Source of the DNA: a virus | Direction: 5' to 3' (one strand) | IMG/VR virus record: IMGVR_UViG_3300033153_012070 | Coordinates: 1-23,002 of that record | DNA: 23,002 nucleotides | Part shown: positions 10,261-21,646 of the stretch, in pieces | How the letters are laid out: every line of letters starts with the position of its first letter | Numbering within the stretch: position 1 is the first letter of the stretch | The notes under the pieces: model-generated | Database searches by the model: none | The model's input: only the letters and a program-made list of their open reading frames with translations | What the model was told of the DNA's origin: nothing | Translations under genes and position numbers: made by a program

Positions 10261-10653
10261 ATGATAACAATAACGAAAATATTTGAATTTGCTGCGGGAC
10301 ATCATCTTCCACATCATGAAGGGGCTTGCAAAAATAAACACGGCCACAACTTTAAATTAGAAATCACAGTTGGCAAACGATTAAAAGATCTATTACTCGA
10401 AGACGCATCTCTTGAAAATTTTCCATCAAAAGGCATGGTAATGGATTTTTCTGATTTGAAAAAAATAGTTAAAGAGAAGGCAATTGATTTATTAGATCAC
10501 AAATATCTAAACGATGTGATTTCTAATCCAACGGCTGAATTACTTGTGATAGAAATTAGAGGATTGATTGGTAATGAAATTGAGAAATATGGCCGGTTAC
10601 TTAAAGTTCGATTATGGGAATCTTCGACATCATATGCAGAATGGAAGGCATGA
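10261..10653 (+). CDS. queD: QueD, 6-carboxy-tetrahydropterin synthase
   Basis: A 130-aa protein of the PTPS/QueD family. Residues 8-31 read FEFAAGHHLPHHEGACKNKHGHN and hold the zinc histidines (about H14, H27, H29) and the catalytic cysteine C23. MDFSDLKK, LDHKYLND and NPTAELL later in the chain match the family order. It converts dihydroneopterin triphosphate, the FolE product, into carboxy-tetrahydropterin, the second step to preQ0. A ribosome binding site (AAAGGAAAC) lies 5 bases before the ATG. It overlaps a small MKIY-type gene by ATGA. Confidence 0.93.
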   Translation: MITITKIFEFAAGHHLPHHEGACKNKHGHNFKLEITVGKRLKDLLLEDASLENFPSKGMVMDFSDLKKIVKEKAIDLLDHKYLNDVISNPTAELLVIEIRGLIGNEIEKYGRLLKVRLWESSTSYAEWKA

Positions 10654-10799
10654 AAATATATCTCGCAGATACAAATCAACGAGATCATCTTGGCCATATT
10701 GTGAAAGTGGGGGGGCAATGGCATTTAGAATCCTATTTTGCTATTATGAAAAATAAAATCTGTATTAAAAAATGGTCAATATTTAAAGATAAAAAATGA
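10650..10799 (+). CDS. MKIY-family small protein 1 (DpdA N-terminal-segment-like)
   Basis: A 49-aa protein. It starts MKIYLADT and has HLESYFAI at residues 25-32. This is the most diverged member of a set of five short proteins in this window that share MKIY(F/L/I)A at the start and (R)L(L/I)SYY about 25 residues later. The start overlaps the queD stop (ATGA), and its stop overlaps the next MKIY gene. No function is known to me; see the protein at 14493 and the DpdA-like gene. Confidence 0.6.
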   Translation: MKIYLADTNQRDHLGHIVKVGGQWHLESYFAIMKNKICIKKWSIFKDKK

Positions 10800-10972
10800 A
10801 AATATACTTCGCAGGAAGCGCCGCGACAAAAGAGAGAGAAGAAATATGGTTAAATAGAGGAATAAAAAACAGACTTATTTCTTACTATATTCATATAACC
10901 AATGAATTATTAAATAAAGATACAGAAGTTATATTTAAAAGGATCAATCGTGCAAACAATAAACATAAATGA
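10796..10972 (+). CDS. MKIY-family small protein 2 (DpdA N-terminal-segment-like)
   Basis: A 58-aa protein. It opens with MKIYFAGSAATKEREE, then GIKNRLISYY at residues 22-31, and ends in a lysine-rich tail. This is the member that best resembles the first strand-helix-strand unit of DpdA/TGT-type barrels (strand plus G, helix, then G-x-x-x-(I/L)L-x-x-(Y) strand). Upstream ATGA overlap; its last 23 bases overlap queE, in another frame. Confidence 0.65.
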   Translation: MKIYFAGSAATKEREEIWLNRGIKNRLISYYIHITNELLNKDTEVIFKRINRANNKHK

Positions 10973-11597
10973 AATATTCGCCGGCATCAATGGAGAAGTA
11001 AATCGGTGGCATCAGGGTTCGGCAACTGTTTTTGTCAGATTTCAAGGGTGTAATCTCAAATGTAGCTACTGCGACACAAAACATGCCCAATCTCAAGCAG
11101 GCCACGAACCCTACACAATTCCCGAATTATTGGCCGAGATTAAATTTTTTGGAATTAAAAGGGCGACTATTACTGGTGGAGAACCGTTGTTACAAAAAGC
11201 TATTTATAAATTAATTGTAAAATTAGTTATATCCGGGTTTCAAATTTCAATCGAAACAAACGGATCAATTAGAATCCCCTCTCCATTGATAAACGACGAA
11301 ATTTGTTGGATCGTTGATTATAAAATGGAATTCTCTGATCAAATGATTATAAAAAATTATCTTAATTTAACAAAAAATGATTGGGTTAAATTTGTAATTC
11401 CGGATAGGCATGAATTCGATAGGGCCATTTTAATAAAAGAAGATTTGCAAAAAAGGGGATGCAAAGCAAAATTTGCCTTCAGCCCCATCGGGGCAGATTT
11501 TTCGTTGGCAGGGCAAATAGTTGATTGGTTGGTCGAGGATGAAATTAATGATGTTATTTTGAATCTTCAGATTCATAAGATAATCAATGCAAGATAA
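10950..11597 (+). CDS. queE: QueE, 7-carboxy-7-deazaguanine synthase (radical SAM)
   Basis: A 215-aa radical SAM enzyme that turns carboxy-tetrahydropterin into 7-carboxy-7-deazaguanine. The iron-sulfur cysteines are C34, C38 and C41 in GCNLKCSYCDTKHAQ; TITGGEPLL (about residues 74-82) is the SAM-binding motif; IETNGS and DYKM(E) follow in the QueE order. IFAGINGE at the N-terminus matches the substrate-binding start of QueE. It has a GTG start with AAAAGGATC before it, inside the preceding MKIY gene. Length is normal. Confidence 0.93.
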   Translation: MQTININEIFAGINGEVNRWHQGSATVFVRFQGCNLKCSYCDTKHAQSQAGHEPYTIPELLAEIKFFGIKRATITGGEPLLQKAIYKLIVKLVISGFQISIETNGSIRIPSPLINDEICWIVDYKMEFSDQMIIKNYLNLTKNDWVKFVIPDRHEFDRAILIKEDLQKRGCKAKFAFSPIGADFSLAGQIVDWLVEDEINDVILNLQIHKIINAR

Positions 11598-11607
11598 AAT
11601 AATTTTT

Positions 11608-11637
11608 AAAAACTTCAATAAAATCTTATAATATAAT
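11608..11637 (+). promoter_or_regulatory. Promoter-like element, copy 4
   Basis: AAAACTTCA starts at 11609 and TATAAT at 11627, again 18 bases apart. It lies in the gap after queE, followed by AAAGGAAAA and the ATG at 11650. The variable base after AAAACTT (T or C) followed by A is reminiscent of the T4 MotA box ending. Confidence 0.6.
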
Positions 11638-11649
11638 AAAGGAAAATTA

Positions 11650-11832
11650 ATGGGAATATCAAGATTTAGAAATATCAAAAGAGATGCTCATATCAATAAA
11701 ATAGGATTATGGGTTAATTGTGATGGAACAACAATAAAAGATCGCAAGCCAGATTTGGAGTTGAAACCAAATCATTTCAGGTTTGTACAGAAATGGCGGC
11801 CTGTAAAAAATAAAAAGGGAGGAACAAAATGA
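11650..11832 (+). CDS. Small basic hypothetical protein
   Basis: A 60-aa protein not recognised: MGISRFRNIKRDAHINKIG, then LWVNCDGTTIKDRKPDLELKP in two pieces, and a lysine-rich end. It follows promoter copy 4 and a ribosome binding site and overlaps the next ORF by 4 bases. The high fraction of basic residues would suit nucleic-acid binding, but nothing proves it. Confidence 0.6.
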   Translation: MGISRFRNIKRDAHINKIGLWVNCDGTTIKDRKPDLELKPNHFRFVQKWRPVKNKKGGTK

Positions 11833-11948
11833 AAATAAAAGGCTTAACAGAGCAGCAGTTGAAAAAACGGAAAAATTATCTTGAAAAAACAAACCCGGCC
11901 TCAAGATGGATTAAATACATTAAATATCATTTAAGAAAGGGTGTTTAA
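11829..11948 (+). CDS. 39-codon basic ORF
   Basis: A short protein (MKIKGLTEQQLKKRKNYLEK, then TNPASRWIKYIKYHLRKGV). It is helical and basic. The strong ribosome binding site AAAAGGGAGGAACAAA precedes the ATG and makes it likely to be translated. It ends at the first base pair of the structured RNA that follows. Function unknown. Confidence 0.5.
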   Translation: MKIKGLTEQQLKKRKNYLEKTNPASRWIKYIKYHLRKGV

Positions 11949-11949
11949 A

Positions 11950-12194
11950 AAATTATGGTAGCGATACAGCGGCAATGTATCTGCGCTTCAAAATCTCCAA
12001 GCGCAACAGACCCAAGTAACCTAATGGTGAACGGGCGGCGTGCCCGAAAAGGGATGCGACAATTAAAGATCCTGTGCCGGAAGCTCCGGTGGAGTAATCT
12101 AAATAAGAAAATCAGAAATAGGTGGAGGGATATCGTGCCCATAGAAGCCCTTCTGATACGACCGTGTCAGCGAAAATCCGGCCTATCATAATTT
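11950..12194 (+). ncRNA. Structured non-coding RNA candidate, about 245 nt
   Basis: The ends pair: AAATTATGGTAG (11950-11961) with CTATCATAATTT (12183-12194), 12 pairs with one G-U. Inside are GATACA/TGTATC (11963-11981), TGCGCTT/AAGCGCA (11982-12005), CGGGC/GCCCG (12032-12046), GCCGGA/TCCGGT (12076-12090) and ATCAGAA/TTCTGAT (12111-12157). GC content is visibly higher than in the coding DNA around it. A reading frame at 11955-12191 exists but has no ribosome binding site and an unlikely Arg-rich product. I find no RNase P, tmRNA, 6S, tRNA or group I intron signature. It fills the only long gap in the window. Role unknown; it is in the 7-deazaguanine module, downstream of promoter copy 4. Confidence 0.7.
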
Positions 12195-12246
12195 AATTTT
12201 TAAATAATTAAAAAAAGAAATTAAAACTCAACAAAGGAGAATTAAA

Positions 12247-12849
12247 ATGGCACTAACTAAAGAAAATATCACAAGAGAATTATTGGAAAAGGTAGCAGCA
12301 GATTTAAACAAAACCATCTTGGATGCAGAATCGGCAATTCCGATAGACGGGGTTATGGAAGATGCCTTCCGAGCAGATGTGTTAGAAGTTGGAGGGATGT
12401 TGATTGCAGGAGATGTTTCTAAATTAAAACCAGAAACTGGCGAAGTTTTAGGGGCAATGGGAATAGAGTTGTTTGTTGAAGTAAAGGGCACGGATGAAAA
12501 GGAAGAGATTGTTGAACCCCCGGAATCAACTGTTGACAATAAAGAGGAAACGGTCAGCAAACCAAAACCAGAAAAGGAAGATAAAACAGAAATCCCAAAA
12601 ACATTGAATAAAAAAAGTATTCCAGGAGTCATAGTCAGTATTCTTGAATTTATCCAAAAAGCCCCCAAAGAAGGCATCAATATCAAAGAAATCGCCAATA
12701 AATTAACCAAAAGATTTCCCGACAGAAAAGCCGACGCAATGATGAAAACAATTAGGGCTCAAATTGGAGGCAAAAAAACGCCGACCCGGATGGAAAAAGA
12801 GAAAAAAGTCGAATTTAGCATCTCTGATGGTAAATATTCTATTTCTTAA
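12247..12849 (+). CDS. Hypothetical protein with acidic linker and C-terminal winged-helix-like domain
   Basis: A 200-aa protein. Residues 1-85 are helical (ENITRELLEKVAADLNKTIL). Residues about 85-120 form a Glu/Lys/Pro-rich linker. Residues about 122-200 (SIPGVIVSILEFIQKAPKEG, INIKEIANKLTKRFPDRKAD, then a strand pair KKVEFSISDGKYSIS) look like a small winged-helix domain such as HARE-HTH. That fold binds DNA, so a DNA-binding or regulatory protein is possible. AAAGGAG precedes the ATG. It lies between the structured RNA and queC. Confidence 0.6.
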   Translation: MALTKENITRELLEKVAADLNKTILDAESAIPIDGVMEDAFRADVLEVGGMLIAGDVSKLKPETGEVLGAMGIELFVEVKGTDEKEEIVEPPESTVDNKEETVSKPKPEKEDKTEIPKTLNKKSIPGVIVSILEFIQKAPKEGINIKEIANKLTKRFPDRKADAMMKTIRAQIGGKKTPTRMEKEKKVEFSISDGKYSIS

Positions 12850-12874
12850 GCCTAAATAAAAAAGGAGAATGGGA

Positions 12875-13576
12875 ATGGACAAGGGACTTAAAAAAGCTCT
12901 TGTCCTCTTTTCTGGAGGACAAGACTCTACTACCTGTTTATATTGGGCGAAGAATAAATTTGATGATATTAAGACTTTGAATATTGATTATGCCCAACGC
13001 CATGTAATTGAAACTAAGTGTGCTCAAAAAATTGCAATAGAAATCGCCAAGGTATCTTATCAAAAATTCCAAACAACGGTTTTTCAAGACATCGGAGATT
13101 CTGCATTGATACAAGAGGGGAATGTGTCAGAGAAACATCGTAGTTCCACTGATTTACCCGCATCATTTGTGCCTGGCCGTAATATTTTATTTTTAACGAT
13201 TGCCGCCGCAATAGCGTATAAACATGATATATTCGATATTGTTACTGGGGTTTGTCAAACTGATTATAGTGGATACCCTGACTGTAGAAAGAAAACAATT
13301 AACGCAATAGAACAGTCATTGTCTTTAGGGATAAATACAAGATTTAAAATTCATACCCCATTAATGTATTTAACAAAAGCTGAAACGGTTGAGCTGGCAG
13401 AATCTTTACCCGGTTGTATGAATGCTTTGGCATATAGTCACACTTGTTATGAAGGGCAAATCCCACCGTGTATGGAATGTCTGGCGTGTAAATTAAGGGC
13501 AAAGGGATTTAAAGAAGCCGAAATTGAAGACCCATTAATAAAGAGAATGAAAAAAAGGGGGGATTTAAATATATGA
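12875..13576 (+). CDS. queC: QueC, 7-cyano-7-deazaguanine (preQ0) synthase
   Basis: A 233-aa protein. The PP-loop SGGQDST is at residues 13-19 and binds ATP. FVPGRNILFL and GVCQTDYSGYPDCR follow in QueC order, and the C-terminal zinc site is TCYEGQIPPCMECLACKLR. It converts 7-carboxy-7-deazaguanine through its amide to preQ0, using ATP and ammonia. All family motifs look complete. I prefer the ATG at 12875, 7 bases after GGAG; the ATG at 12869 is only one base from it. Its end overlaps the fused folE gene by 4 bases. Confidence 0.93.
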   Translation: MDKGLKKALVLFSGGQDSTTCLYWAKNKFDDIKTLNIDYAQRHVIETKCAQKIAIEIAKVSYQKFQTTVFQDIGDSALIQEGNVSEKHRSSTDLPASFVPGRNILFLTIAAAIAYKHDIFDIVTGVCQTDYSGYPDCRKKTINAIEQSLSLGINTRFKIHTPLMYLTKAETVELAESLPGCMNALAYSHTCYEGQIPPCMECLACKLRAKGFKEAEIEDPLIKRMKKRGDLNI

Positions 13577-14490
13577 CAAAATTAGTGTATTATTCTCAAG
13601 AAGAATTTGAAAGAGATATCCAAATTTTAGCATTAAAAATTGATTCTAAAAAATATAGATCAATATATCCAGTTCCTCGAGGTGGCATTCCGGTTGCAAT
13701 TGCATTATCAGAAAAACTTAAATTGCCGCTAACAATAAAACCGCACAAAGCAACATTAATCGTTGATGATTTAGTAGATTCTGGAACTACAAGACAAAAA
13801 TTTCCTAATAATGATTTTGCCTGTATCCATATAAAAAAACATACACCAAAAAATTTATATCCAGAATATTTTGTTAGTGAAAAAGATTGCTGGATTGAAT
13901 ATTGGTGGGAAAAAATGGCTAATGAACAACCGGCTGAAGACGCTATCATCAGAATCATTGAAATGATAGGCGATGATCCCAATAGATCAGGAATAATTGA
14001 AACTCCTGATAGAGTTATTAAATCTTTTAGGGAAATTTATGCTGGGTATCATCAAAATCCAAAAGATGTTATTAAAACATTTGAAGATGAAAAAAAACAA
14101 TTTGGGGGTCTTGTTTATTTAAAAGATATTGAATTTTATAGTATGTGTGAACATCATATGCTTCCCTTTTTTGGATCTGCTTTTATTGCTTATATTCCAA
14201 ATGGCCCAGTGATTGGAGCATCTAAAATGGCTCGTTTATTAGATATTTTTGCACGACGCCTTCAAATACAAGAAAGAATTGGGGAACAAGTTACTGAAAC
14301 ATTGATGGAATATTTAAAACCAATTGGCGCCGCATGTTTAACTGAGGCTAAACATCTTTGTATGGCTTGCCGAGGAGTTAAAAAACAACATTCTGTTTTA
14401 GGATATAGTTCTTTAAAAGGAGTGTTTTTAGAAAACTCCAATAAGGGAATTGCCGCAAGAAATGAATTAATGGCTCTGTGGAAAAGATAA
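13573..14490 (+). CDS. folE: Phosphoribosyltransferase-GTP cyclohydrolase I (FolE) fusion
   Basis: A 305-aa two-domain protein. Residues 1-115 are a type I phosphoribosyltransferase: PVPRGGIP at 33-40 and the PRPP loop LIVDDLVDSGTT at 62-73, closest in size to small purine (xanthine-guanine) enzymes. Residues 120-305 are FolE: EDAIIRIIEMIGDDPNRSG, TPDRVIKSF, CEHHMLPF (zinc ligands C192 and H195), GASKMARL and HLCMACRGVKK (zinc ligand C263). FolE makes dihydroneopterin triphosphate from GTP, the first step to preQ0. The joined transferase could recycle guanine displaced from DNA by DpdA into GMP; that is my inference. ATGA overlap with queC. Confidence 0.9.
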   Translation: MTKLVYYSQEEFERDIQILALKIDSKKYRSIYPVPRGGIPVAIALSEKLKLPLTIKPHKATLIVDDLVDSGTTRQKFPNNDFACIHIKKHTPKNLYPEYFVSEKDCWIEYWWEKMANEQPAEDAIIRIIEMIGDDPNRSGIIETPDRVIKSFREIYAGYHQNPKDVIKTFEDEKKQFGGLVYLKDIEFYSMCEHHMLPFFGSAFIAYIPNGPVIGASKMARLLDIFARRLQIQERIGEQVTETLMEYLKPIGAACLTEAKHLCMACRGVKKQHSVLGYSSLKGVFLENSNKGIAARNELMALWKR

Positions 14491-14492
14491 AT

Positions 14493-14627
14493 ATGAAAAT
14501 TTATTTTGCGGCAGGATTTACAATTGATAATTATGAAAGCGAAGAAAGAAGGATTCGGCAAAAATTTAAAAAGTGGAATAGATTATTATCTTTTTATAGT
14601 CACAAAAAACCAATTTTATATAGTTAA
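14493..14627 (+). CDS. MKIY-family small protein 3, directly upstream of the DpdA-like gene
   Basis: A 44-aa protein with MKIYFAAGFT at the start and WNRLLSFYSHKKP at residues 28-40. It starts 3 bases after the folE stop. It ends 34 bases before the DpdA-like ATG, and stops occur in all frames between, so this is not a single base error away from one long DpdA. Compared with TGT proteins, MKIYFAAG lies where the first barrel strand (FMPVGT) is and RLLSFY where the IILGNTYHL strand is. Confidence 0.65.
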   Translation: MKIYFAAGFTIDNYESEERRIRQKFKKWNRLLSFYSHKKPILYS

Positions 14628-14661
14628 TTAAACTTAAAAAAGATGAACTAAAAAGGTTAAC

Positions 14662-15555
14662 ATGAAAAATCAAATATCATTGTTTTTAGATTCGGGAGCG
14701 TTTTCTGCATGGTCAAAAAATATTGAAATTGATATTCAAAAATATATTAATTTCATAAAAGAGTATGAACAATATATTGATATATACGCTGTATTGGATG
14801 ATATTCTTGATCCAAAAATTACATTAAAAAATCAACAAATAATGGAAGATGCTGGACTTAATCCTTTACCTTGTTTTCATTTTGGAGAACCAGCTAAATA
14901 CCTTGAACATTATCTTGATAATTATGATTACATTGCTTTTGGCGGTATGGTGCCAATATCAACTAAAGATTTAAATGTATGGCTTGATGATCTTTTTAAA
15001 AATTTTATTTGCGATAAATCCGGAATACCAAAAATAAAAATTCATGGATTTGGATTAACAAGCCATAAACTCATGCTTCGTTATCCTTGGTATAGTGTTG
15101 ATAGTACATCATGGGTGATGACCAGTCGAATGGGAGGAATATATATTCCAAAATATAAAAATGGAAAATGGGCTTATGATGAGGATTCATGGAAAATAGC
15201 CGTATCGTCACGAAGTCCAAATAGGGGAGAAACAGAAAAGCATTTTGATACTTTGTCCAAAAGTGCCCAAGATAAAATATTAAAATATTTATCTAAAAAA
15301 GGATATAAACTTGGGAAGTCAGAAATTAAAACAGTTTCTGCAAAAAAATATAAATTAAAAGAGAATGAAAAATGGAATGGCAAAGAATTGACAGATGGGA
15401 CTCGTGAAGTAGAAATAATTATTGAAGATGGGCTTTGCAATAATTACAAACTAAGAGACGAAATGAATATTATTTATTTTCTTGATCTTGAAAAATCAAT
15501 GCCGAAATGGCCTTGGGCATTTAAATTCAAAGGGGTTCAGGGATTTGAATTATGA
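14662..15555 (+). CDS. dpdA: DpdA-like TGT-fold DNA base-exchange enzyme, lacking its N-terminal segment
   Basis: A 297-aa protein. LFLDSGAFSAW at residues 7-17 matches the catalytic DSGGFQ motif of tRNA-guanine transglycosylase, and YAVLDDILDP, FHFGEP, YIAFGGMV, IHGFGLTSHKLM and YSVDSTSWVM follow in the order seen in phage DpdA; the aspartate in VDSTSW is the likely nucleophile. DpdA proteins exchange guanine in DNA for a 7-deazaguanine. Usually 40-100 residues (first barrel strands) come before the DSGAF motif; here the chain begins almost at it. The missing part resembles the small protein at 14493. The C-terminal 100 residues (KKGYKLGKSEIK onward, with REVEIIIEDG) are not recognised. The ribosome binding site is weak (AAAAAGG). 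It overlaps the next MKIY gene by ATGA. Confidence 0.8.
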   Translation: MKNQISLFLDSGAFSAWSKNIEIDIQKYINFIKEYEQYIDIYAVLDDILDPKITLKNQQIMEDAGLNPLPCFHFGEPAKYLEHYLDNYDYIAFGGMVPISTKDLNVWLDDLFKNFICDKSGIPKIKIHGFGLTSHKLMLRYPWYSVDSTSWVMTSRMGGIYIPKYKNGKWAYDEDSWKIAVSSRSPNRGETEKHFDTLSKSAQDKILKYLSKKGYKLGKSEIKTVSAKKYKLKENEKWNGKELTDGTREVEIIIEDGLCNNYKLRDEMNIIYFLDLEKSMPKWPWAFKFKGVQGFEL

Positions 15556-15704
15556 AAATATACTTCGCAACATGGCTCGAAGAAGTTAGTCAAGATGAAG
15601 CACTAACAAATAAAAATGCCTGGAATCGGTTATTATCTTATTTTTTTATTTCTAAAAGAGAAAATGGTAATCAAGATTTTAAGGAATATGCAAATCATAA
15701 ATGA
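15552..15704 (+). CDS. MKIY-family small protein 4
   Basis: A 50-aa protein: MKIYFATWLEE at the start and AWNRLLSYFFISK at residues 23-35. The NRLLSYF block is nearly the same as NRLLSFY in the member at 14493, while the residues between the two blocks are unrelated. ATGA overlaps on both sides place it in the dpdA operon. Confidence 0.65.
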   Translation: MKIYFATWLEEVSQDEALTNKNAWNRLLSYFFISKRENGNQDFKEYANHK

Positions 15705-15901
15705 AAATCTATATCGCGGCCCCGATGATACATTGTATTGAAAATAAAATGGAAGGGCAATTACCCAATGTCCTCTTATCATATTGGGATTGGATAGGCC
15801 CAATTCCATTTAGAAAACCAACTTTTAAATATTTAATTCCTATATTAACTTTACTGAAGGAGAAACTAAATGACAAGAACAAGAAGACAACCAAGAAATG
15901 A
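15701..15901 (+). CDS. MKIY-family small protein 5
   Basis: A 66-aa protein: MKIYIAAPMIHC at the start, NVLLSYWDWIGP at residues 23-34, then a hydrophobic stretch and a lysine-rich end. It is the longest of the five and keeps both blocks. The start overlaps the stop of the preceding family member, and its end overlaps the sliding clamp start by 32 bases. Confidence 0.65.
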   Translation: MKIYIAAPMIHCIENKMEGQLPNVLLSYWDWIGPIPFRKPTFKYLIPILTLLKEKLNDKNKKTTKK

Positions 15902-16919
15902 AAACACTGAGGAAATGAAAATAAATGTTAAAGATTTCATTGATGCATTAACAAAAGTTAAACCGGGATTGGCCAACAAAGAAATTGTAGAACAAAGTAC
16001 TCATTTCATTTTCGACAATAATAAAATCTGGACATATAACGATCAGGTTTCAATTATGCAAAACTTTGATTCCGGCCTGACAGGGGCAGTCAAGGCAGAC
16101 AGTTTTTACAAACTGCTTGGCAAAATTCCAGATGAAGAAATATTCATATCTGAAGAAAACGGAAAAATTAAATTATCCGGAACAAAAATCAAAGCCAATA
16201 TTAAAATTGATCCTGATGTTAAAATTCAGCCAATTCCAGTACCCGGTATCAATTCAAAACAATGGGAAGAATTACCCGAGAATTTCGACGATGCAATTGC
16301 ATTTTGTGCTTTCAGCGCCTCAAGAAATATGTTGCGCCCGGAACTAACCTGTCTTTATGTTGTTGATGAATATGTAATCGGATGTGATACATTTCGGGGA
16401 ACAAAATATAAATTGAAATCGAAAATGAATCAAGAATTTCTTCTGCCCGCTACTGCCGCTATAGAGCTTGCAAAGTATAATCCTTATAAAGTTATTTCCG
16501 ATAACGGTTGGCTACATTTCATTAATAAAGAAAAAACCACTTTTTCATGTAGAACCTATGACGAAGAATATCCTGAACAAATCTGGGATTTTTTCAAAAT
16601 TGAAGGAGAAGAAGTAAAATTACCGACAGATTTTCTTGAGGCCATTGGCAGAGCGGAAGTAATGCTCACGGCAGATTTTGATCTTGATAGAATTGTTTCT
16701 CTTATTGTAGAGGATAATGAGATCATATGTTTTAGCGAGGGAAATTATGGAGATTTTGAGGAACGGGCAGATATAGAGTATAATGGCCCAAAACTTGATA
16801 TCAAAGTACATCCGATACTTTTATCAGAAATTCTAAAACATCTATCGACCATCATAATTGGAGAACGATTGCTATTTAAAGGCGAGAACTTTGAGCACGG
16901 AATATGTTTGAGTTGTTAA
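15870..16919 (+). CDS. dnaN: DNA polymerase III beta sliding clamp
   Basis: A 349-aa protein that fits a DnaN-type clamp: KINVKDFIDALTKVKPGLAN at the start as in the first clamp domain, LTGAVKADSFYKLLGKIPDEE, then a central FDDAIAFCAFSASRNMLRPELTCLYV as in the second domain, and the FLLPATAAIEL, EEYPEQIWDF and ADFDLDRI motifs of the third. A ring-shaped dimer would tether the phage DnaE to DNA. Two starts are possible: ATG 15870 after AAGGAGAAA and ATG 15915 after GAGGAA; the second begins exactly at the domain. No clamp loader gene is seen in the window, so the host one or a gene outside may load it. Confidence 0.85.
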   Translation: MTRTRRQPRNENTEEMKINVKDFIDALTKVKPGLANKEIVEQSTHFIFDNNKIWTYNDQVSIMQNFDSGLTGAVKADSFYKLLGKIPDEEIFISEENGKIKLSGTKIKANIKIDPDVKIQPIPVPGINSKQWEELPENFDDAIAFCAFSASRNMLRPELTCLYVVDEYVIGCDTFRGTKYKLKSKMNQEFLLPATAAIELAKYNPYKVISDNGWLHFINKEKTTFSCRTYDEEYPEQIWDFFKIEGEEVKLPTDFLEAIGRAEVMLTADFDLDRIVSLIVEDNEIICFSEGNYGDFEERADIEYNGPKLDIKVHPILLSEILKHLSTIIIGERLLFKGENFEHGICLSC

Positions 16920-17570: not shown

Positions 17571-17681
17571 TTGAAACCTGAAGGTATAATTAGCGAAGTC
17601 TCAAACTATTCTACAGGAACAAATCCACAAAAGTATCGTATTTCGATTACTGGCGATGGCACAAAGGTAGAATATGAATAA
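17571..17681 (+). CDS. 36-codon ORF with TTG start
   Basis: Reads MKPEGIISEVSNYSTGTNPQ, then KYRISITGDGTKVEYE. The TTG is placed 7 bases after TTAGGAGGT, one of the best ribosome binding sites in the window, and the stop overlaps the dnaE start by 8 bases. It is beta-rich, like a small OB or barrel protein. Function unknown. Confidence 0.55.
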   Translation: MKPEGIISEVSNYSTGTNPQKYRISITGDGTKVEYE

Positions 17682-19392
17682 TCAAAACTTTTATCACCTA
17701 CATTTGCATAATGAATTCAGTTATCTGGATGGTTACGGATCGGCCAGGCAACATATCTCCAAGATAAAAGAACTTGGTATGGAATATGCCGCAATTACAA
17801 ATCATGGAAACGTGGATGGTTGTTTAGAATGGCAACAAGAATGTGATAAACAAAACGTCAAACCTATTTTAGGATGCGAAGCATATATTGTTCCAGATGC
17901 AAATATCAAGAAACAGGGCGAAAAACGCGGACACATCATTATTCTTGTTAGAAATCAAATTGGCTGGATAACTCTCTGCAAACTTTTAACAAAAGCAAAC
18001 CTTGATGGATTTTATAACAAACCCAGAATAGGCTTTAATGAATTATTAAATTCGAATTTGTCTGGATTCGTTATTCTTACGGCTTGCATAGCCTCATTTA
18101 TTAATTTACCCGGCGGCATTGATGTATTAACAGAATTATGGGATAGAATGAAAGGCAGGCTTTTCTTAGAAATTATGCCCCATGATTTCAAGGATCAGTA
18201 TATTCTAAATGAAAAACTTCTTGATTTACACAATCAATTAGGTATTCCTTTGGTTACCACAAACGATTGTCATTATATAGAAGAAGACGATTGGGAAACT
18301 CAAGAAATTTTATTGGCAATCCAGAGACACGCCAAGTGGGATGACCCGAAACGATTTAAATTTTCATTAAGGGGATTATATCTCAGATCAACAAGAGAAA
18401 TGCAATTGGCATTTAGAAAACATTGTTTTACAACTACACAAATTAACGAGGCAATGCAAAATACTACCAAAATTGCTAAAATGTGTTATAACTTTAGAAT
18501 TCCAAAACAGGAAATATCTTTACCATCGCCATATGAAGGCGGAGGAGATAACAAAAAATTAGAAGAACTTTGTATAAAAGGATTAAACGAATTAAAATTA
18601 AATGATATTAAAAAATATAGAGATAGATATTATCAAGAATTTGGACTCATCAAAAAGAAAAACTTCTCCAAATATTTCTTAATTTTCTACGATATAATTC
18701 AATGGTGTCATAAAAATAATATTGCGGTTGGGCCTGGCAGAGGATCTGTTGGCGGCTCACTTATTGCCTATTTGATAGGAATAACCAAAATTGACCCTAT
18801 CAAATTTCATTTATTATTTTCTCGATTTATTACAGAAGATCGTATTGACTGGCCCGATATCGATGTGGATTTTGAAAAAAGACACAGAGAAAAAGTCAGA
18901 GAATATATTGTCAATAAATATGGGCAAAATTATACTTGTGGCATATCCACAGATATGAAGCTTAAAAGTCGGGCAGCTTTGCAAGCTGTTGCTCGAGTAT
19001 TTGAAACTTCCGAAAATGAAATAACTTTGCGGAAAGATGTTCGGGCCTTCTCTAAAGCCATTTGGCAAAAAGATGACGAAAAAGCCCTACAATCAACTAT
19101 CGATGATACAGATGAAGGGAGATGGTTTGCTAAAAAATATCCTAAAATTATTAAATTTGCATTGAAAATGGAAAATCAAATTCGTGGTAGCGGGCAACAT
19201 GCGGCTGCGCTTGTTGTTTCTGATGAAGATTTAACCCAAGGGACAAAATGTGTTCTCATTAGAAGAAACAAACGAATTGTCTGCAATTGGAATATGGAAA
19301 ATAGTGAATATGTTGGTCTAATGAAACTTGACATTTTAGGATTAAGTACTTTGTCTGTATTGGAAGAAGCAAAGAGATTGGTAAACGAATGA
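17674..19392 (+). CDS. dnaE: DNA polymerase III alpha (DnaE), N-terminal part: PHP and palm
   Basis: A 572-aa protein covering the first half of DnaE. The PHP domain has HLHLHNEFS at 8-16, ITNHGNVDG at 41-49 and TTNDCHYIEEDD near 195-206. The polymerase part has GPGRGSVGGSL at 353-363, the catalytic pair DIDVD at 395-399, and the third catalytic aspartate D553 in LMKLDILGL. It stops at EEAKRLVNE, in the linker right behind the palm, where bacterial DnaE runs on into IPLDDKK. That continuation is at 19976, after a methyltransferase gene. So all three catalytic acids are on this chain while the DNA-binding rest is on the other. It starts with ATG at 17674, coupled to the TTG ORF. Confidence 0.92.
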   Translation: MNNQNFYHLHLHNEFSYLDGYGSARQHISKIKELGMEYAAITNHGNVDGCLEWQQECDKQNVKPILGCEAYIVPDANIKKQGEKRGHIIILVRNQIGWITLCKLLTKANLDGFYNKPRIGFNELLNSNLSGFVILTACIASFINLPGGIDVLTELWDRMKGRLFLEIMPHDFKDQYILNEKLLDLHNQLGIPLVTTNDCHYIEEDDWETQEILLAIQRHAKWDDPKRFKFSLRGLYLRSTREMQLAFRKHCFTTTQINEAMQNTTKIAKMCYNFRIPKQEISLPSPYEGGGDNKKLEELCIKGLNELKLNDIKKYRDRYYQEFGLIKKKNFSKYFLIFYDIIQWCHKNNIAVGPGRGSVGGSLIAYLIGITKIDPIKFHLLFSRFITEDRIDWPDIDVDFEKRHREKVREYIVNKYGQNYTCGISTDMKLKSRAALQAVARVFETSENEITLRKDVRAFSKAIWQKDDEKALQSTIDDTDEGRWFAKKYPKIIKFALKMENQIRGSGQHAAALVVSDEDLTQGTKCVLIRRNKRIVCNWNMENSEYVGLMKLDILGLSTLSVLEEAKRLVNE

Positions 19393-19979
19393 TAAATCCA
19401 TTTTTTAAAACAATCTTAGATTTATGTAGTGGTTCTGGAGCGTGGTCAAAACCTTATAAAGATGCTGGATATAATGTTAAAATTATAACATGGCCGGAAT
19501 CAGATGTAAGATTGTGGCCATCTAAAAGATCAAATAAATCTCGCTTGCCAGAAGAATTTAATGATATTAAAAAATATATTGGAAATGTTTATGGAATTTT
19601 AGCTGCCCCGCCATGTACTGTATTTGCTGGTTCTGGAGCAAGATGGAAAAGATCGGATATTGATATGATAGAAGGGATATCAATCATTGATGCTTGTATC
19701 AGAATTATTTATGTTTTAAAACCCTATTTTTGGGCTTTAGAAAATCCAGTGGGTAAAATAAATAATTGGCTCGGTGATCCAGTATTTTCTTTCGATCCTT
19801 GTGATTATGGAGATCCATATACTAAAAAAACTCATTTATGGGGTAAATTTAATATTCCAAAGGGATTTCCTGTTATTCCAATAGAGGGAAGTAAAATTCG
19901 TACAAAACTATCTGGAGCAGAAAAAAGATCAATAACTCCAATAGGATTTGCAAATGCATTTTTTAAGGCCAATCAATGA
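19389..19979 (+). CDS. Cytosine-C5 DNA methyltransferase-like protein inserted within dnaE
   Basis: A 196-aa protein with a Rossmann methyltransferase start (ILDLCSGSGAWSKPYKDAGY, SAM-binding motif at 11-19), AAPPCTVFAGSGARW (Pro-Cys motif, candidate nucleophile C76) and WALENPVGK (ENP at 118-120, like the ENV motif). These are motifs I, IV and VI of C5-cytosine methyltransferases. It is much shorter than restriction-type enzymes and has no visible target-recognition domain, as in the small Dcm-like proteins of phages. Both ends are ATGA overlaps with the two dnaE halves. Whether it methylates DNA, or a nucleotide, is open. Confidence 0.75.
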   Translation: MINPFFKTILDLCSGSGAWSKPYKDAGYNVKIITWPESDVRLWPSKRSNKSRLPEEFNDIKKYIGNVYGILAAPPCTVFAGSGARWKRSDIDMIEGISIIDACIRIIYVLKPYFWALENPVGKINNWLGDPVFSFDPCDYGDPYTKKTHLWGKFNIPKGFPVIPIEGSKIRTKLSGAEKRSITPIGFANAFFKANQ

Positions 19980-21646
19980 AAATAAACCTCGATAAAATTC
20001 CTTTAGATGATAAAAAAGTATTTGATTTGATTAATTCAGGTAAAACAGCAGGCATATTTCAGATTTCAGCCAAGCCGACAACTGAACTTTGCAAAGAAAT
20101 GAAAATCAATAATTTTGAGGATATTGTTGCTGCAATTGCATTGGTGAGGCCCGGTCCATCGAAATCTGGCATGACGAAAGATTTTATTAAAAGAAAACAT
20201 GGCGCAAAATGGAAAGCTATACATCCAATATATGAAGATGTCACAAAATATACTTACGGCATCCTTGTTTATCAAGAACAGGTGATGCAAGTTATTAGCA
20301 GGGTGGCCGGTTTGCCAGAAAGCACGGCTGATAAAATTCGCAAAGTAATTGCCAAAAAAAGAACAGCCAAAGAATTCAAGCCTTATTGGGAACAATTTAG
20401 GGATGGTTGCAAAAAAATGAAAACATTATCCCAAAAAGAGGCAAAGCATTTTTGGGATGGACTTTTAGAATGGGCAAGTTACGGATTTAATCGCTCGCAC
20501 AGCGTCGCATATGCCATGATTGGTTATCAAACGGCCTGGTTAAAGGCTAATTATCCAGTTGAATTTATCTGCGCTTGTTTGTCATTTGCGGAATTAGATG
20601 ATAATAAAGACGACGACAAAAGGCAAAAAGGGGAATTATTCAAAGAAATAATGGAACATAATATAACAATCATGTCCCCAAAAGTAGGATTTTCGGACTC
20701 TACCAAGTGGCTCGTTAAAAATAATAAATTATATGTTCCATTTATAGAGATTTCGGGATTTGGAGAACATCAGGCCAACAAATGTATAAAAAGTAAAGCA
20801 ATAAATAAACCAAAACTCGTGGGGTTCTTTCCTGGTAAAAAATATATTGCTTCCCCTCAAGTTAGAAATAAAACTGAATTGATTCTTGATGAATTAAAAG
20901 TGCATGATCCGGAAGCCATCCCGGATAATAAAATACTTTCAAAATATATTCCTTTTGATATTAGCAATGAACAGTCTGGTGATCATACTATAAAATCCCT
21001 TGGCTTTAAACCATCAAAAAATATATCATCTAAATGGAAGCCCCTTGATATATCAAAGAAAGAAATCCCTCGAGGACTAATTCAAAGAATTAGATTTTCA
21101 AATGATAATTTGCTTAAATGTGAAAAATGCAAATTGAGAAATGAATGTGACGAGCCAATCATGCCATCTTTGGGATTGTATAATGTTGTGATCAATGGCG
21201 AAGCACCGGGGCCAAAAGAAAACAAATATAAACGAGGCTTTTATGAAAAGGCCCCGGCGGGCAAATTACTTTGGGAAGAATTGGCGAAATATAACTTGAA
21301 TAGACGAATGTTTCATATCACAAATTGTGTAAAATGTTATCCTTCAATAACCAAAACCCCAAAGGCAAAACATATAGAATCCTGCAATCCTTGGTTAATA
21401 GAAGAACTCAAACAGTTAAAAACAAAATTGATTTTGGCATTCGGGAATACAAGTGTTAAAGCGTTTACTGATCGGGATAGTGGTATAATGAATTTATCGG
21501 GAACTACGGAATGGATTCCTTCAATTGAAGCATGGATTTGTTGGTGCCTTCATCCTGCGGCTGTTGCAAGAAAGGGCAGTAATCGAGAATATTTTGAGCG
21601 CGGAATTAAAAATTTTGCCGAGAAGTTTAAATTATTAAGGAAATAA
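19976..21646 (+). CDS. DnaE C-terminal part fused to a family-4 uracil-DNA-glycosylase-like domain
   Basis: A 556-aa protein. Residues 1-275 continue DnaE from the palm linker: IPLDDKKVFDLINSGKTAGI, RPGPSKSGM, TYGILVYQEQVMQV, RKVIAKK and ASYGFNRSHSVAYAM are in DnaE order (fingers and start of the beta-binding part). After a spacer of about 100 residues comes a UDG family 4 type domain (375-556): cysteines C382, C385, C454 and C470 spaced like an iron-sulfur cluster, GEAPGPKE at 408-415 (motif A) and HPAAVAR at 526-532 (motif B). The normal DnaE C-terminus with OB and tau-binding parts is not visible and seems replaced. The glycosylase-like domain could read or remove uracil at the fork, or bind without cutting. 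Confidence 0.88.
   Translation: MKINLDKIPLDDKKVFDLINSGKTAGIFQISAKPTTELCKEMKINNFEDIVAAIALVRPGPSKSGMTKDFIKRKHGAKWKAIHPIYEDVTKYTYGILVYQEQVMQVISRVAGLPESTADKIRKVIAKKRTAKEFKPYWEQFRDGCKKMKTLSQKEAKHFWDGLLEWASYGFNRSHSVAYAMIGYQTAWLKANYPVEFICACLSFAELDDNKDDDKRQKGELFKEIMEHNITIMSPKVGFSDSTKWLVKNNKLYVPFIEISGFGEHQANKCIKSKAINKPKLVGFFPGKKYIASPQVRNKTELILDELKVHDPEAIPDNKILSKYIPFDISNEQSGDHTIKSLGFKPSKNISSKWKPLDISKKEIPRGLIQRIRFSNDNLLKCEKCKLRNECDEPIMPSLGLYNVVINGEAPGPKENKYKRGFYEKAPAGKLLWEELAKYNLNRRMFHITNCVKCYPSITKTPKAKHIESCNPWLIEELKQLKTKLILAFGNTSVKAFTDRDSGIMNLSGTTEWIPSIEAWICWCLHPAAVARKGSNREYFERGIKNFAEKFKLLRK

Follow-up and report, generated by a model that had tools for sequence, protein, structure and literature searches.

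A split phage DpdA accompanied by a bank of small, apparently phase-variable N-terminal modules

The window analysed here is a 23-kb virus fragment from IMG/VR (record IMGVR_UViG_3300033153_012070; 23,002 nucleotides in all) that carries an operon of preQ0 genes in which a gene for DpdA, a predicted DNA base-exchange enzyme, stands among five short open reading frames (ORFs). A preliminary description of this DNA had drawn attention to these ORFs, and all five are present with the shared ends ascribed to them: each begins MKIY(F/L/I)A and has L-x-S-(Y/F) near residues 25-35. Of the three that had been said to touch dpdA, only the one at 15552 does so; the ORF at 14493 stops 34 nucleotides (nt) short, and the one at 15701 overlaps the preceding small ORF. 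In the following, the small ORFs are referred to as modules, and their types are named by a sequence signature because single-linkage clustering fused nearly all types. Related loci carry L numbers, OFF denotes a frameshifted module, and “fused-only” and “iterated” refer to the profile hidden Markov models (HMMs) introduced below. Of the preQ0 genes alongside dpdA, folE and queE were recognised by profile, queD and queC by motif and gene order. Along the operon, the features are:

10261-10653, plus strand: queD, putative 6-carboxytetrahydropterin synthase (QueD/PTPS-like sequence; gene order as in phages whose QueD is annotated)
10650-10799, plus strand: free module 1, ADTxQR type, ON, 49 amino acids (fused-only HMM E 2e-4, iterated 8e-8)
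10709-10715, plus strand: G7 homopolymer inside module 1, predicted to act as a phase-switch tract (no other G/C run of at least 7 in the window)
10796-10972, plus strand: free module 2, AG..REE type, ON, 58 amino acids (ATGA overlap with module 1; HMM match)
10831-10839, plus strand: AGAGAGAGA repeat inside module 2, predicted to act as a phase-switch tract (no other AG/CT tract of at least 9 nt in the window)
10950-11597, plus strand: queE, radical S-adenosylmethionine (SAM) enzyme, 7-carboxy-7-deazaguanine synthase (phrog_2076, PF04055)
12869-13576, plus strand: queC, putative preQ0 synthase (FSGGQDSTT PP-loop motif, gene order)
13573-14490, plus strand: folE, GTP cyclohydrolase I with a phosphoribosyltransferase-like N-terminal domain (PF01227, E 8e-60)
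14493-14627, plus strand: free module 3, 44 amino acids, without repeat tract and in another frame than the core (upstream of the core; HMM match)
14662-15555, plus strand: DpdA core without β1-α1-β2 (phrog_887, E 1e-60, starting at profile position 55)
15552-15704, plus strand: free module 4, ATWL type, 50 amino acids (ATGA-coupled to the core; orthologues adjoin dpdA in 37 loci)
15701-15901, plus strand: free module 5, PFRKxT type, 66 amino acids (ATGA-coupled to module 4; fused-only HMM E 0.036, iterated 1e-5)
15870-16919, plus strand: DNA polymerase processivity factor (sliding clamp), conserved downstream gene (phrog_947; same order in L008-L010)

The product of the dpdA gene comprises barrel strands 3-8, the DSGAF motif and a long C-terminal extension. 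It begins 6 residues ahead of LFLDSGAF, in keeping with the preliminary description, which had the chain start at this motif, and its match to phrog_887 (phage “queuine tRNA-ribosyltransferase”) opens only at profile position 55, the single-chain (fused) relatives matching from position 10. The core shares 46% identity over 215 residues with Seuratvirus SeppeHuegi DpdA, and D10 and G12 of the DSGAF motif are invariant in both alignments checked, the aspartate being, by analogy, the putative catalytic residue. A complete one-chain barrel is absent from the window, as indicated both by the profile start and by an AlphaFold2 model of the core alone (predicted local distance difference test, pLDDT, 91.4), in which strands 1 and 2 are missing. 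On this evidence, the window enzyme is a split form of phage DpdA. The NCBIfam model NF041059 (cut-off 200 bits) gives the window core 17.7 bits; since Seuratvirus DpdA itself reaches only 17.0 bits, phage DpdA lies outside the scope of this model.

In classical phages, DpdA is one chain with the layout M-(K/N)-(I/L/V)-(Y/F)-(I/L/M)-A ... L-E-S-Y-H-Y ... FLDSGAF, and the residues conserved among the modules (M1, A6, L27 and S29) match the invariant M1, A6, L23 and S25 of fused DpdA. A set of 18 fused DpdA N-termini from closer relatives of the window, the window itself excluded, served to train an HMM, which was run against 9,102 ORFs from both strands. This fused-only model found the window modules at 10796 (E = 6e-9), 14493 (6e-7), 15552 (8e-7), 10650 (2e-4) and 15701 (0.036), and with the iterated model all five had E ≤ 1e-5. 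None of the 111 small ORFs with E < 0.01 in the fused-only search of both strands lay on the minus strand; the profile test with this control rules out that the MKIY starts arose by chance. No Pfam family covers these proteins. The homology shows that the five MKIY ORFs are free-standing relatives of the phage DpdA N-terminal segment (about 50 amino acids), which is what the preliminary description had suspected.

For one fused relative (L015, alignment of 63 rows), AlphaFold2 gave a model with a pLDDT of 91.6 and a predicted template modelling score (pTM) of 0.87, in which the module part forms strands at residues 2-6 and 22-25 and the core part strands at 51-54, 85-87, 115-117, 135-139, 171-174 and 190-193. 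The model is consistent with the module supplying strands β-1 and β-2 of an eight-stranded barrel. The corresponding part of bacterial tRNA-guanine transglycosylase (TGT) lines the nucleotide pocket, with Val45 and Leu68 forming the pocket floor and the β1α1 loop sitting at the dimer interface (PMC5395182); by our own reading Val45 lies on β-1 and Leu68 on β-2. Because its TGT counterpart does so, the module part probably contacts nucleic acid and the partner subunit.

The locus set comprised 80 IMG/VR loci obtained by searching with the core and 37 obtained by searching with the ATWL module. About 70 related loci, from uncultured phages, share the system: each has one DpdA core (rarely two), split or fused, next to which lie as many as six free modules, and module types recur across these loci. 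All 28 cores scored as split fall inside one branch of 55 in the core tree (Shimodaira-Hasegawa-like approximate likelihood ratio test, SH-aLRT, 98), and within that branch the “quick” tree requires at least 12 changes between split and fused, four of them forced by well-supported branches; some “split” labels belong to fused genes with a frameshifted (OFF) module, so that split and fused counts vary with the definition. A free module is kept in every split-core locus and is found in none of 23 ordinary DpdA loci, a DpdA core is encoded in 37 of the 37 ATWL loci, and whole-contig searches show the modules clustering near dpdA. In cellular genomes no ATWL module was found, and the cellular search with the core returned only seven distant or metagenome-assembled genome (MAG) contigs.

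The recurrent types (ATWL in 20 loci, TAPGNE and AGNFP in 11 each, TPGIxRE, PGGG and PFRKxT in 8 each, ADTxQR in 3) are spread across distant cores. The ADTxQR type, that of module 1, occurs as a free module in three loci (the window, L026 and L027) and as a DpdA fusion in L038; the TPGIxRE type is mostly free and fused to DpdA in L035. Two types being both free and fused fits the “interchangeable N-terminal subunits” of the preliminary description, whose split enzyme gains support from the homology and the missing core segment as well. The ratio of non-synonymous to synonymous differences (pN/pS) is 0.12-0.39 in the closest ATWL pairs and 0.17-0.32 for TPGIxRE, with synonymous sites near saturation, and pN is below pS in all 107 of 107 ATWL pairs with at least 50% identity; on these values, purifying selection acts on orthologous free modules. 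Of 140 free modules, 59 have a start codon that overlaps the stop codon before it in an exact ATGA. Two loci contain a tandem pair of DpdA-like genes (L037:2037-3808 and L047:5961-7891), one of the L037 copies being strongly diverged (branch length 2.2). Five further loci have DpdA cores of 616-837 amino acids with an intein-like insert (L091:63-1913, L100:3491-6004, L101:432-2318, L120:3263-5338 and L122:3159-5138); the insert, which begins CMTEE..VLT..GW, occupies a single conserved site behind RYPWY/F, and in L120 it matches LAGLIDADG weakly.

Modules with an apparently broken frame turned out to carry the frameshift precisely at a simple repeat in the β1-α1 loop. Across a tract census of 74 loci (thresholds: AG/CT tracts of at least 9 nt, G/C runs of at least 7), AG/CT tracts were 44-fold denser in modules than in the surrounding DNA (33 in 33 kb versus 20 in 885 kb; p = 3e-34); for G/C runs the difference was 23-fold (p = 4e-12). 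After synonymous recoding with the codon usage of each locus, 4.2 ± 2.0 AG/CT tracts were expected against 35 observed, and 2.6 ± 1.6 G/C runs against 14 observed. The coding repeats exceed composition and codon need, the criterion for contingency loci based on simple sequence repeats (SSRs). Classical phages have no tracts in the DpdA N-terminus and one in 285 kb elsewhere; in the window, the single AG tract and the single G7 run both lie inside modules. The synonymous recoding rules out a purely protein-level RERE motif as the cause of the AG tracts, as does the occurrence of other kinds of tract in the β1-α1 loop. Separately, AT repeats of at least 9 nt are 14-fold enriched in modules, and AT repeats of at least 12 nt occur in or near modules at L015:8302, L017:2127, L018:4671 and L113:4692.

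Scripted scoring of 50 module-context tracts gave 32 ON and 18 OFF, and inspection moved L017 and L125 to OFF (20 OFF). TPGIxRE tracts are mostly 13 nt when ON, OFF by +1 at 10-11 nt and OFF by +2 at 15 nt, with one exception in L018, which is ON at 11 nt in a shifted context. Poly-G tracts are ON at 7-8 nt and OFF by +1 at 9 nt, as in the orthologous pair of L096 (G8, ON) and L091 (G9, OFF). ON and OFF alleles differing in tract length are thus seen between orthologues of different phages, and the relation of tract length to frame is as unit slippage would predict. Phase switching of the modules is strongly suggested, and we consider it very likely.

Fused genes also carry a candidate internal start for the core. 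Of the 27 fused genes in the clade, 23 have an in-frame ATG 5-13 codons ahead of DSG, versus 7 of 23 in classical phages (p = 1e-4), and Shine-Dalgarno pairing at this ATG beats that at other internal ATGs (p = 3e-5), both p-values being optimistic because the loci are related. The position of the ATG is that at which split cores begin. Where the fused module is OFF (L018, L022, L099, L113 and L116), the core could plausibly still be made and recruit a free module.

As the best explanation overall, to which we assign a probability of roughly 0.6, we propose that the locus encodes a single catalytic core and a set of barrel subunits that can replace one another and be switched one by one. The gene at 14662-15555 would make the catalytic core with barrel strands 3-8, and the five MKIY proteins would be alternative β1-α1-β2 modules, each able to complete the barrel. 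Slippage at AG, G, C or CT tracts would turn many modules ON and OFF, and with a fused module OFF the core would be produced from its own internal start. A phage population would then hold differing combinations of active modules and, through them, differing modification patterns. At the level of sequence, the homology, the split and fused states, the recurrent types, purifying selection, repeat enrichment and tract-linked frame changes are established. That free modules assemble with the core in trans is probable; for a target context that depends on the module we see even odds, and protection would presumably be the purpose. More tentatively, at odds a shade short of even, the system might be a viral counterpart of the phasevarion, in which a core with a switchable module bank rewrites the modified sequences and presents many patterns to host defences.

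Several observations weigh against this proposal. The pLDDT of the module in the fused L015 model is 67-87, below that of the core, and Foldseek returned generic TIM (triosephosphate isomerase) barrels only, none under E 0.001. Three of the five window modules have no tract, and the OFF frames are skewed to +1 (17 of 20). Three pattern scans for same-strain tract alleles returned only the source contig, and tract lengths are identical within the duplicate contigs L024/L025, L039/L040/L041/L061 and L105/L106. Full-barrel relatives with a fused module are about as many as split ones. The preliminary description had held that a full barrel without any MKIY protein would count against a split enzyme; the fused relatives are indeed full barrels, yet they retain extra free modules. 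As these relatives already have full barrels, their free modules would depend either on a bare core made from the internal start or on displacing the fused module.

Part of the evidence would also be accommodated if all modules completed the barrel with the same specificity, their copies and switching only tuning DpdA activity through dosage or on/off control. Some positions are common to all modules, and translational coupling and repeats fit expression control. We nevertheless regard this as unlikely, as the module types differ strongly in the β1-α1 loop, yet each is conserved across phages, and dosage needs no diversity, whereas five different types often occur in one phage (the window, L014). 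The presence of free modules in phages with a complete fused DpdA could instead mean that they act without the phage core, as decoys or inhibitors of a host TGT or DpdA or of a defence protein, with switching evading recognition; phase variation is typical of surfaces under attack. The constant company of a DpdA core in the ATWL loci, the retention of a free module in all split-core loci and the occurrence of the same types fused to the core argue against such a role, as does the two-strand piece itself, which would hardly fold alone, and we consider it quite improbable.

Debris of repeated dpdA copies, or full-length genes broken by assembly errors, would explain why some modules are frameshifted, and indel errors are possible in metagenomic contigs. 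The frameshifts, however, lie at enriched repeats, and tracts elsewhere are mostly within intact long ORFs; on the same two grounds, sequencing error is unlikely. The window's five frames are intact, and the same types occur in many distant phages. The pN/pS values and this conservation rule out the debris reading, to which we attach next to no probability, and the case that the preliminary description had made against simple decay holds, with every split-core locus retaining at least one free module.

Phage DpdA (phrog_887; Seuratvirus CAjan and SeppeHuegi, BcepGomr) inserts preQ0-type bases into DNA. The present system shares with it the core identity, the preQ0 genes and clamp as neighbours and the DSGAF motif. 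Ordinary phage DpdA is a single chain without free modules, whereas here β1-α1-β2 lies on separate genes, with alternative copies, apparently phase-variable repeats and an internal start of the core. Bacterial DpdA (PDB 7ui4, NF041059) shows a weak sequence match in the barrel, the window core remaining far under the cut-off. We know of no TGT with a split or exchangeable β1-β2; the bacterial enzyme has in common with the window enzyme a presumed TIM-barrel base exchange and the DSG motif, but is a single-chain homodimer working on tRNA. The closest functional parallel is phase-variable restriction-modification in bacteria (PMC12707154). In Type I and III restriction-modification phasevarions, too, target or activity is switched by slippage of coding repeats or by exchange of a specificity part. 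Here, the switching would take place in phages and would affect two strands of the catalytic barrel of a guanine-exchange enzyme, not a methyltransferase; a switch of target is our inference.

DpdA-dependent 7-deazaguanine shields phage DNA from restriction, and in CAjan the modification reaches about 32% of G and is gone without dpdA (PMC6884629). The openly licensed literature searched contained no split DpdA, free N-terminal modules or slippage-switched phage DNA modification, nor any natural viral TIM barrel for which alternative two-strand subunits, switched by slippage, supply the missing part in trans; no determinant of DpdA sequence preference was found there either. If β1-α1-β2 is a swappable determinant, a natural domain-swap experiment has already been run in dozens of phages, and the question of specificity could be tested directly on one core combined with many modules. 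A barrel of this kind would also serve as a programmable tool for base exchange and open a new route of bet-hedging against restriction, in which one phage population may vary the marking of its DNA against bacterial defences.

Some observations concern neighbouring genes. The folE architecture at 13573-14490 recurs in the relatives L001-L003, judged by length and N-terminal sequence. In L001 (1529-3100), an intein-like insert that matches Hint, NUMOD3 and HNH splits the CxxxCxxC motif of QueE. Finally, at window positions 17674-21646 a DNA polymerase III alpha-like gene is divided into two pieces that flank an unrelated ORF (19389-19979); the gene is one chain of 1141 amino acids in L003, and the second piece in the window terminates, by reading of its sequence, in a uracil-DNA-glycosylase-like region.

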